The notes under the pieces were generated by a model that saw only the letters and a list, made by a program, of their open reading frames with translations, had not been told where the DNA came from and did no database searches. Both the position numbers and the translations under genes were made by a program. Shown in pieces: positions 3,708 to 31,419 of a DNA stretch of 32,193 nucleotides (the first letter of the stretch is position 1; each line of letters begins with the position of its first letter). The stretch is from Bacteroidota bacterium. GTDB lineage: Bacteria; Bacteroidota; Bacteroidia; Bacteroidales; PUMT01. The stretch spans positions 1-32,193 of the forward strand of contig PWHJ01000066.1 in assembly GCA_003554865.1 (NCBI GenBank), given 5' to 3'.

Positions 3708-5330
3708 ATGGCAGGGAAAAAGGAAACCCCGAGACAGAAACTGATAGGAATGATGTATTTGGTGCTTATGGCTTTGCTGGCACTGAATGTATCGGTTGAA
3801 GTTCTAGACGCATTTGTTGTTGTCGACGACGGGCTGTCAAGAACTATCGGCAATTTTATGTCAAAAAATGAAAGGACCTACAGGGAGTTTGACCAGAGAT
3901 ATGCAGAAAACCCCCAAAGGGTAGGTCCATGGAAAGAAAAAGCCGATAGTGTAAGGGAAAAGGCAAACGAGCTTTACGATTATATCGAAGAGCTGAAAGT
4001 TGAAATTGTCAGTACTGCTGAAGGAGAAGATTCAGAGGCAATTGTTGACGGTATAGTTGTAAGCGACAGGATAGTACAAAGGGAGAACCTTTCGGTGCCC
4101 GGACAGGTGATGTTGGGTGCTCACGATAGAGGAAAGGCAAGAGATCTTAAAAATGCAATAAGTGACTACCGTGATTTTCTTTTGACTTTCGTTGACGAAG
4201 ATAATGAAGGCGTAATTTCTGCCATAGAAACAGGCCTTGATACTTCTGACCCACCTCCAAAAGATGGAGCAACCCCAACATGGGAAACCCAAAATTTTTC
4301 ATATATACCGATGATAGGAGTGATTACGCTGATGACCAAAATGCAGGGCGACGTCCGCAATGCAGAAGGGAATGCTATCAATTACCTGCTTCAGCAAATA
4401 GATGCCGGAGCATTTATGTTCAATGCCCTTGAAGCAACCGTAATACCTAACACAAATCATGTGCTGCAGGGCAACGAATACGAAGCAGAGGTTTTTCTGG
4501 CCGCTTTTGACACAACTCAGGCGCCTGAGGTTTTGCTGGGTGATTACAGAACTGTTACCCGCTCTGACGGTACAACTGATTATGAAATGGTGGGAAGAGC
4601 AGATACACTACCTGTCAGAGAAGGAAGAGGAGTCTACAACATCAGGCCCACACGTACAGGCCGCTTTGACTGGGGCGGACTGGTACGTATGAGGGCCTCC
4701 GATGGTTCTTATATTAACAGGCCGTTTGAGGTATCCTATCAGGTGGCAGATCCAAGCCTTGTTGTATCGCCTAGCAGAATGAATGTTTTCTATCAGGGGC
4801 TGGAGAACCCGGTTGAAATTTCCATTCCGGGAGTGCCCGCAGACCAGATAAATGCAAGAATAAACAACGGTAACATAAGGAGGATTTCGGGCACAAATTA
4901 TATTGTTGAGCCTGAAACTACCTCCAGAGAAGCTGTTATATCGGTAACAGGGACAATCAACGGGGAAACAAGGGACTTTGGCACACGGGAGTTCAGGGTA
5001 AGGTCAGTACCGGATCCGGTTGCAGTTGTAGCCGGGCGCACAGGCGGCAACATTGGCAGGGGGGAGCTGGCTGAACAAATGGGAGTTTTTGCTGAAATGG
5101 AAGGTTTTGAATTTGATCTTGAATTTACAGTTCAAAGCTTTACAGTATCTACTTCAGTTGGCGGATATGTCAGGGACGCGCGCTCCAACAGCAACCGTAT
5201 TACCGAAGAACAAAGGGATATAATAGAAAGTGCAAGAGCAGACCAAAGAATATATTTTGACGATATTATAGCGGTAGGACCGGATGGTGAACAACGGCGG
5301 CTACCCACGGTCGGCTTCAGGATAAATTAA
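3708..5330 (+). CDS. gldM: T9SS motor protein GldM/PorM
   Basis: GldM has one N-terminal transmembrane helix that packs inside the GldL pentamer and a long periplasmic arm reaching the GldKN ring. The N-terminus MAGKKETPRQKLIGMMYLVL is the family signature. The helix spans roughly residues 13-30 and is followed by a helical stalk and beta-rich domains D1-D4. The C-terminal domain starts around PDPVAVVAGRTGGNIGRGEL and ends in LPTVGFRIN, as expected for the GldM C-terminal fold. The 540-aa length is close to the usual ~515-520. A Shine-Dalgarno-like GAGGA sits just before the ATG, unusual for this phylum, where starts usually lack one. The gene is followed by a 187-nt spacer containing a duplicated leader and an interspersed element before gldN. 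Confidence 0.95.
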   Translation: MAGKKETPRQKLIGMMYLVLMALLALNVSVEVLDAFVVVDDGLSRTIGNFMSKNERTYREFDQRYAENPQRVGPWKEKADSVREKANELYDYIEELKVEIVSTAEGEDSEAIVDGIVVSDRIVQRENLSVPGQVMLGAHDRGKARDLKNAISDYRDFLLTFVDEDNEGVISAIETGLDTSDPPPKDGATPTWETQNFSYIPMIGVITLMTKMQGDVRNAEGNAINYLLQQIDAGAFMFNALEATVIPNTNHVLQGNEYEAEVFLAAFDTTQAPEVLLGDYRTVTRSDGTTDYEMVGRADTLPVREGRGVYNIRPTRTGRFDWGGLVRMRASDGSYINRPFEVSYQVADPSLVVSPSRMNVFYQGLENPVEISIPGVPADQINARINNGNIRRISGTNYIVEPETTSREAVISVTGTINGETRDFGTREFRVRSVPDPVAVVAGRTGGNIGRGELAEQMGVFAEMEGFEFDLEFTVQSFTVSTSVGGYVRDARSNSNRITEEQRDIIESARADQRIYFDDIIAVGPDGEQRRLPTVGFRIN

Positions 5331-5389
5331 ATCGACATACTGTAATAACTCAGTGAATACTAGTTTAATTAAATAATATACGGATGAAC
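5331..5389 (+). repeat. first copy of the duplicated gldN leader
   Basis: This stretch immediately after the gldM stop is about 80% identical to 5463-5523, with one 2-nt gap near the end. Both copies contain TAATAACT, AGTTTAAT and CGGATGAA. The second copy runs into the real gldN start codon. The first runs into an equivalent ATG (5384) that opens only an 11-residue reading frame. The period is about 132 nt. Confidence 0.75.
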
Positions 5390-5437
5390 CCCCATCAACC
5401 TTTGTCAAACAAAATATGAAGAACAAACATGGGGGCC
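5384..5437 (+). repeat. interspersed element, copy A
   Basis: The sequence from the ATG at 5384 to about 5437 matches 16029-16082 at 45 of 54 aligned columns, with one single-base gap. It is bounded by CCCCCAT and ATGGGGG, which can pair. It encodes an 11-residue ORF (5384-5419, peptide MNPHQPLSNKI) whose TGA overlaps the ATG of a 13-residue ORF (5416-5457). Whether these are translated is unknown. It sits between the two copies of the gldN leader. Confidence 0.65.
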
Positions 5438-5462
5438 CATACGGCCAAAAGAGATAAACTTA

Positions 5463-5523
5463 ATTGACATTCTATAATAACTTGTTGAATATTAGTTTAA
5501 TAAAATACATTTTACGGATGAAA
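5463..5523 (+). repeat. second copy of the duplicated gldN leader
   Basis: Partner of 5331-5389. It ends in TTTACGGATGAAA, which contains the chosen gldN start codon at 5518. The divergence between copies shows the duplication is not recent and not an assembly stutter. Confidence 0.75.
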
Positions 5524-15916: not shown

Positions 15917-16188
15917 AATTTAAAAATTGTATAACTTTTGAAAATAGCTACCCGGATATGTTCATCAAAAAGCAAATATAACAAAAGCCAAAGATTATTC
16001 ACGTTTTCAGAATTCAATTTAAGCAAAAATGAACCCCCTTCAGCCCTGGCCAGACAAAATAAGATGAACAAACCATGGGGGCATCCGTTTGAAACACCTG
16101 GTATAATTTACCGCGGACTTGCAAAATGCTGGCATCCTTTTAAATAATGTACTGATGCAAAAGGAGCATAACCTCCAAAGGCTTTAAT
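15917..16188. other. intergenic region carrying interspersed element B
   Basis: This 272-nt interval between two minus-strand genes contains element copy B (16029-16082) and a weak hairpin after the Na/Pi gene (GGAG at 16163-16166 pairing with CTCC at 16173-16176). On the minus strand that hairpin is followed by TTTT, a possible weak terminator. A 69-codon plus-strand frame (15938-16147) runs through it but does not look like a conserved gene apart from its tail. Confidence 0.5.
16029..16082 (+). repeat. interspersed element, copy B
   Basis: This matches 5384-5437 at 45 of 54 aligned columns, with one gap. As in copy A, an ATG-AAC-CCC start opens a short ORF (16029-16067, peptide MNPLQPWPDKIR). 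Its TGA overlaps the ATG of a second ORF (16064-16147, beginning MNKPWGHPFETPG). The element lies antisense to the flanking genes, whereas copy A is in sense orientation before gldN. Function and mobility are unknown. Confidence 0.65.
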
Positions 16189-29966: not shown

Positions 29967-29983
29967 CAGCTGAAAAATTTTAA

Positions 29984-30032
29984 AGTGGAAAGATTTGACT
30001 GATTGCAACCACAGTAAAAAATGCTAAAACGT
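29984..30032 (+). ncRNA. SAM-II-type riboswitch upstream of metK
   Basis: This 49-nt stretch matches the SAM-II layout as I remember it. P1 is GTGG (29985-29988) pairing with CCAC (30009-30012). The enclosed loop contains GATTT, then ATTGCAA directly before the 3' P1 strand. An A-rich tail follows, with AAATGCTAAAA. In SAM-II the loop segment ATTT pairs with the downstream AAAT to form the pseudoknot, and the TGCTAAAA segment completes the binding site. Its place between a good promoter and metK fits feedback control by S-adenosylmethionine. SAM-V has a very similar core and cannot be excluded without a covariance search. Confidence 0.8.
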
Positions 30033-30105
30033 ATAATACTGCCTTTTTCCAGTCACCATATTCCACCTTATTAATTGATTATTTAACTAAAAATTTAAAA
30101 ATAAT

Positions 30106-31419
30106 ATGGGATACCTATTTACTTCTGAATCGGTGTCTGAAGGACACCCGGACAAGATAGCTGATCAGATTTCTGATTCTTTGCTGGATGAGTTTCTTAA
30201 AATGGACCCCAACTCCAAGGTAGCATGTGAAACACTTGTAACAACCGGCCTTATAATTTGCAGCGGAGAGGTCAACACTACCGGATATGTTGACATTCAA
30301 AATATTGCAAGAAGTGTAGTCAGCAACATAGGATACACCAAGTCGGCTTACAAGTTCGATGCCGAATCGTGCGGGGTTATTTCAACAATTCACGAACAGT
30401 CTCCCGACATAAGCCAGGGAGTTGTAAGAGAAAGCGAAGAAGAGCAAGGCGCAGGCGACCAGGGAATGATGTTTGGTTATGCTACCACTGAAATGGAAAA
30501 TTACATGCCTGTGCCAATTGAGTTGTCGCATGTTATTCTGCAACAACTTTCCGAAATCAGGCATGAAGGTGAATATATGACCTACCTGCGCCCTGATTCA
30601 AAGGCACAGGTTACAGTCGAATATGATTCAAACAATGTACCAAAAAGGATAGACACAATTGTTATTTCAACACAGCACGATGAATTTGACAATGAAGATC
30701 AGATGAGACGTGTTATTGAAAAAGATATCCATGAAGTACTCATACCGAGAGTGCGCAAGGTAAGCTCCCTGCCGGAGAAGATCAGACGCCTTTTTGACAA
30801 TAATTACCGGCTTCTTGTAAACCCCACCGGCAAATTTGTAATTGGCGGCCCGCATGGTGATACCGGCCTTACCGGAAGAAAAATTATCGTTGACACATAC
30901 GGAGGAAAAGGTGCTCACGGTGGCGGGGCTTTTTCAGGTAAGGATTCTTCAAAGGTTGACCGTTCCGCAGCTTATGCTACAAGACATATAGCAAAAAATA
31001 TGGTAGCGGCAGGAGTTGCCGACGAAATGCTGGTTCAGGTTGCATACGCTATAGGCAAGGCTGAGCCGGTTGGGATATTTGTAAATACATATGGAACCTC
31101 CAAGGTAAATATGACCGATACGGAAATAGAGGAAAAAATAAGAAAGCTTTTCGACATGAGGCCATATGCTATAATCAACCGTCTTGGACTTAAAAATCCC
31201 GTGTTTAAAGAAACCTCCACTTACGGCCATTTCGGTCGCTCACCCTCAACAAAGGAAGTTGAAGTTGGATACTCCGACAAGGACACCTATACAAAAAATG
31301 TTGACGGCATGGTAAAGAATTTCAAAAAAGTTGAGCTCTTTGCATGGGAAAAACTTGACTATGTCGAAGCTATAAAAAAGGAATTCGGACTTGTCAAAGC
31401 CGAAAAAAAGGAAGTTTAA
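30106..31419 (+). CDS. metK: S-adenosylmethionine synthase
   Basis: MetK makes S-adenosylmethionine from methionine and ATP. The family signatures are present: [14 protein letters not shown] (residues 11-24), [12 protein letters not shown], and the phosphate-loop region [18 protein letters not shown]. The [20 protein letters not shown] segment is also typical. At 437 aa it is longer than the E. coli enzyme (384 aa), as is usual in Bacteroidota. It is a single gene with its own promoter and SAM-responsive riboswitch. The 3' end lies only 4 nt from the convergent sugar transferase gene. Confidence 0.97.

Follow-up and report, generated by a model that had tools for sequence, protein, structure and literature searches.

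Two Related Elements in the Window

Between gldM and gldN, in the 32,193-nucleotide stretch of DNA analyzed here (the window), lie the truncated right half of an older copy of a short repeat (module B) and, directly after it, a complete copy of the same repeat (copy 1); an eroded full-length copy (copy 2) is present elsewhere in the window (Table 1). The module B remnant begins right after the gldM stop codon (TAA, 5328–5330) and terminates in ATGA, which served as the target of copy 1. The start codon of gldN is itself the right-end ATG of copy 1 (5518–5520). Copy 2 is situated between two minus-strand genes, antisense to both neighbors, and its right end is degenerate, reading ATGC at 16155–16158. 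A SAM-II riboswitch (29979–30037; RF01726, 67.8 bits) also lies in the window, upstream of a gene at 30106 that resembles those for methionine adenosyltransferase.

The first-pass annotation of this DNA had drawn attention to the similarity of 5384–5437 and 16029–16082, counted by hand as 45 identical columns of 54 with one gap, and our alignment reproduced that count exactly. Aligned against the rest of the window, copy 1 reaches a best score of 35, compared with at most 21 among 30 shuffled windows. Scanning the window with a covariance model of the family returned copy 1 at 54.2 bits (E = 1.8e-13) and copy 2 at 48.9 bits (E = 6.1e-12), and no other place in the window was significant for the structure model. 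Both copies open with ATGAACCCCC and contain ATGGGGGC internally. The element delimited by these coordinates is real, but its boundaries had been drawn too short: at both places the unit extends about 80 nt further rightward, and the 54 nt first described represent the left half of a unit of approximately 137 nt.

Table 1. Positions of the repeat copies and their parts in the window
Feature	Position	Strand	Evidence
Older copy, truncated right half (module B)	5331..5387	+	82% direct repeat of 5453-5507; family-unit BLAST match 5322-5388
Copy 1, left flanking target ATGA	5384..5387	+	ATGA left of 73/91 scored copies; single ATGA at empty sites
Copy 1, complete element, 134 nt	5388..5521	+	Alignment, BLAST, model match; gldN protein match begins at 5518
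Copy 1, P1 stem-loop enclosing small hairpin P1a	5389..5435 (arms 5389-5395 and 5429-5435)	+	Model alignment; family covariation
Copy 1, internal guide CCATACG	5437..5443	+	Family P2 covariation; guide/left-base table
Copy 1, right end: P2 3' strand CGGATG plus A, restores ATGA	5515..5521	+	Right-end alignment, P2 covariation, direct reading
Copy 2, left flanking target ATGA	16029..16032	+	Direct reading; model match
Copy 2, eroded full-length element	about 16033..16158	+	Model match 16030-16088; full-length alignment with copies of genomes G012 and G014

Copy Number and Distribution of the Repeat Family

In aligned copies the unit resolves into two modules, about 57 nt at the left and about 80 nt at the right, the right one occurring in several subtypes that terminate ...TTTGTACGNATGA. 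The source genome assembly (3.2 Mb in 243 contigs) contains at least 49 left ends with up to three mismatches to a 26-mer, against 0 for a reversed-pattern control, and BLAST yielded 48 matches to the whole unit. Of 60 genomes searched with the left-end pattern, 16 have copies, and these 16 belong to one GTDB family, with variants that are species-specific; all 15 relatives in the source genome's GTDB family carry copies. All family genomes are drafts, and metagenome-assembled genomes (MAGs) often lose multi-copy transposase contigs.

With the structure model, 8 to 34 copies each were detected in four genomes of the family; elsewhere in the order, 18 of the scanned genomes gave weaker copies, one or two apiece. 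The one named match is a Bacteroidales MAG, isolate CSSed162cmA_274. Some of the top-scoring order-level copies can be read as complete units with all stems, and several end at gene starts; a few of the weakest matches are unconvincing when read. Because the order-level copies came from the structure model, their P1 pairing is partly selected for, while their P2 pairing (L229, L235) is not. No copies were found in the plasmids, phages, and viral contigs searched. Genome G006 has many near-identical copies no more than about 120 nt from a contig end (L132–L149), which suggests that the element has been active recently and has caused assembly breaks.

Insertion Site and Element Ends

Four pairs of filled and empty sites (L224/L249, L199/L251, L196/L247, and L200/L246) show a single ATGA turned into ATGA-element-ATGA. 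The empty site TTTGC-ATGA-CCACTTTT, for instance, corresponds to the filled site TTTGA-ATGA-element-ATGA-CAACTTTT (L224/L249), and the L196/L247 pair sets three tandem units against none. The gldM-gldN spacer is short, ordinary, and without the element in 15 of 15 relatives. Three tandem units also occur at L116; tandems are arranged head-to-tail, and their junctions read ...CGNATGA/AAACCC..., where the slash marks the boundary at which the right end of one unit serves as the target of the next.

The tetramer in the left flank, scored in 91 copies, is ATGA in 73, TTGA in 6, CTGA in 4, and GTGA in 2, with NTAA making up the remainder. Because complete copies beside TTGA, CTGA, or GTGA end in ATGA all the same (e.g., L023, L226, L156, L155, L223, and L170), the right ATGA is the element's own and the left NTGA is the target. 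The element is mobile, inserting directly 3' of NTGA, mostly ATGA. Simple target duplication was rejected, as left and right tetramers differ. A MITE of DDE transposons was rejected as well, since the inverted repeat covers only the left half and no duplication is seen when the left base differs. A dispersed non-autonomous repeat was among the readings proposed from the two window copies alone, and it is backed by the number of copies, by the empty sites and tandem arrays, and by the occurrence of the repeat in relatives; further copies and conserved pairing, whose absence would have spoken against that proposal, proved abundant and present, respectively.

Paired Stems and the Internal Guide

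At the left end, AAACCCGCAT/ATGCGGGTT and variants form the stem P1, which encloses an inner hairpin, P1a, in which TTCG loops are found. The paired ends suggested by the first-pass annotation are borne out, as the arms ACCCCCAT/ATGGGGG covary. Nine of the 14 P1/P1a pairs are changed on both sides, with 27 double-changed cells compared with 6.9 in shuffles, and P1/P1a covariation stands at 0.247 versus at most 0.07 when slid. G-U intermediates are nearly absent from the stems that covary, with 2 one-sided cells among 320.

P1 is followed by TTCCATN, the CATN of which pairs with the right-end NATG to form a second stem, P2. This stem lies outside the search model, and right ends were picked by length alone. 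Among 47 unique copies, the P2 base that adjoins ATG is paired in 34, compared with 16.1 when shuffled (0 of 2000), and C-G, G-C, A-T, and T-A are all common at this N-N pair. CCAT is also able to pair with the left target; in copy 1, the guide CCATACG shows complementarity to the left ATG as well as to most of the CGGATG at the right end. Guides that end in a base other than T agree with the base at the left: CCAA stands beside TTGA (2/2) and CCAC beside GTGA (2/2), and nowhere else (p about 2e-5), a match that comprises four cases, in three of which the copy no longer has its right end. The match could also stem from template-switch correction of palindromes. No guide complementarity to the left flank was found beyond ATG.

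One copy from another family of the order (L237) has a GTGA target, a CCAC guide, and a right end reading TTGTGA, all three changed together. This right end resembles a GTG start codon, that of a response regulator gene.

Nested and Neighboring Repeats

Some copies harbor a second short repeat, TGAATTTCACAT...ATGTGAAATCGACCGCAGGTCAA, of about 70–80 nt with hairpin ends, nested in either orientation. It sits inside or after P1 in L010, L012, L034, L108, L115, L125, L206, and L214, is also found at TGAA, and probably represents a mobile element related to this one. Another multi-copy element, a longer one that starts GGGTAGCGCCGAG/TTGCGCCGTG, is inserted in the right arm of P1 at L005, L015, L017, and L269 (contig ends of genome G000) and at L256 (genome G010). 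The GGGTAGCGCCGAG sequence, which stands beside some left ends, proved to be this separate multi-copy insertion in the P1 arm; contigs end about 100 nt into it, and its interior and genes are missing from the assemblies. Y1 genes of other Bacteroidales (L277–L306) are embedded in short palindromic repeats of their own, e.g., GCCCTTTCAGGGC, and represent separate REP-like systems.

Proposed Mechanism and Alternative Explanations

We favor, with a probability of roughly 0.6, the reading that the repeat is non-autonomous and depends for its movement on an HUH/Y1-type transposase acting in trans, in an IS200/IS605-like manner. The element would travel as a folded single DNA strand, which the transposase would cut much as in IS200/IS605, and the internal guide CCATN would mark in turn NTGA, the target at the left, and the cleavage site at the right. 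As the right end rebuilds ATGA, a start codon hit by insertion remains usable. Membership in IS200/IS605 is not claimed; that the element may work like these systems is the reading favored by our analysis, and a host function is unnecessary to explain it.

The enzyme was sought in the genomes that carry copies. No Y1 transposase (PF01797) was found in the source genome or in eight other copy-bearing relatives, and the Y1 genes that turned up in relatives and in other families, where 18 further genomes with single copies were searched, are flanked by other palindromes and not by this element. The IS91-type Y2 (PF04986) is nearly absent in the family. IS200 fragments at the contig ends of relatives were rejected, since their right end differs. 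A full-length copy with the same ends was not found in these draft MAGs, from which a contig may be missing.

The main rival of the IS200/IS605-like reading is a site-specific recombinase (serine, tyrosine, or IS110-type DEDD) that would act at the shared TGA core and for which the fold would serve as recognition DNA or guide RNA. TGA is common to both ends while the left N is unlike the right A, an arrangement that fits a circular junction with a core, and the failure to find an HUH gene in the source genome also speaks for such an enzyme. No recombinase gene was seen with these ends, however, and the stem-loop together with guide-like pairing to both target and right end is closer to HUH single-strand systems, so that we consider a recombinase unlikely, if still the strongest competitor.

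The placement of copies at gene starts bears on a different alternative, in which the repeat would be a cis-regulatory leader (a promoter plus a structured 5' UTR) kept for gene control and spread by occasional duplication. In 24 of 51 complete non-tandem family copies, an ORF at least 60 codons long begins with the right-end ATG, compared with 22% of a background of ATGA sites, either intergenic or at gene starts, with gene starts called by simple ORF rules (p 1e-4). About half of these copies thus stop at a gene start, and the conserved 3' consensus includes a TA-N-TTTR box, present in 34 of the 62 copies versus 5.5 in shuffles, both of which a leader would explain. Against this, the canonical Bacteroidetes promoter TTG-N17-23-TANNTTTG was rejected, occurring in 1 of 62 copies; half of the copies, including the antisense copy 2, lie away from gene starts; the downstream genes are unrelated; and the element is absent at gldN in relatives. 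The gene-start excess arises because the ATGA target is a common gene start and the end of the element restores ATGA, and any extra enrichment may reflect selection. Many copies stand directly before genes such as gldN because the restored ATGA keeps an insertion at a start codon readable. A regulatory leader is a distinctly improbable account of the family.

Slightly less probable again is an RNA-based mobile element, retro- or intron-like, whose RNA fold would reverse-insert at NTGA and might splice out. Pairing of the guide with both the left target and the right end recalls internal guide sequences, and the TTCG loops of P1a are in keeping with an RNA. A known structured RNA family was nevertheless rejected, as neither the window nor the copy-bearing loci gave a relevant Rfam match; 137 nt is below the size of known self-splicing introns; and the scarcity of G-U intermediates noted above is unusual for RNA. 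A small regulatory RNA, which had also been proposed from the window copies, received no support as such from any test run.

Chance similarity or a coupled micro-ORF cassette has a negligible claim: the overlapping tiny ORFs are indeed present in both window copies, but the arrangement is not conserved among the dozens of copies in the family, where the stop/ATG overlap occurs in just 44 of 112 unique copies, the ATG is absent in 24, and a one-base difference in left-arm length between species shifts the reading frame, which refutes the cassette.

A broader proposal, which reaches beyond the family, we put forward tentatively and with considerable doubt. Self-guided mini-elements might be distributed Bacteroidales-wide, with a 4–5-base guide (CCATN) that alternates between NTGA and the element's own right end, a one-base guide change that re-targets the element (CCAA to TTGA, CCAC to GTGA), an enzyme that is not a recognizable HUH, and an ATGA design that allows the element to settle in start codons without harming them. 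Should the single-guide model hold, this insertion system would be very small and open to re-targeting. The repeat family is able to enter between gldM and gldN, genes of an operon of the gliding/secretion machine, while regenerating the start codon it hits. It accounts for a large class of unannotated repeats in a Bacteroidales family and probably for many assembly breaks too.

Comparison with Known Systems

A search of the open-access literature found no description of this repeat. BOX/RUP and Correia-type repeats are modular short intergenic repeats with variable inserts, as is the element described here, while their ends, target, and structure differ from it. The resemblance to REP/RAYT systems extends to short palindromic intergenic repeats in many copies, a small mismatched hairpin, and tandem arrangement. 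The REP tag GTAG or CGTC at the hairpin foot is, however, absent, the foot here being NTGA, and this element is larger, at about 137 nt, and has precise NTGA/ATGA ends. The RAYT-like genes of related Bacteroidales carry other palindromes, and Y1 loci are not flanked by the element. HEARO/IscB elements, which are structured and related to IS200/IS605, share the preference for insertion at ATGA/GTGA; in contrast to them, the copy-bearing loci gave no Rfam HEARO match, and the 137-nt unit is without a nuclease gene.

The closest comparison is with IS200/IS605 and its non-autonomous derivatives, including PATE-like elements. Neither a linked or matching Y1 transposase nor a full-length copy, as expected of that group, was found here. 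The right end in IS200/IS605 has its own hairpin, whereas here it pairs with the internal guide, and the target here is NTGA. The guide of IS608 is found 5' to the foot of the hairpin, whereas CCATN lies 3' of the hairpin. IS608 inserts 3' of TTAC, which is kept in the flank at the left and recognized through its pairing with a guide (PMC5934647), and a Bacteroidetes Y1 subclass, 2.6, has been described with "atypical secondary structures" (PMC6006769). There are several points of agreement: as in IS200/IS605, the left flank holds a short, fixed target, 3' of which the element lies, and no target duplication is made; the element possesses a subterminal hairpin (P1/P1a at the left, with the right end paired to the internal guide through P2), carries its own tetranucleotide at the right end, and contains guide bases complementary to its target.
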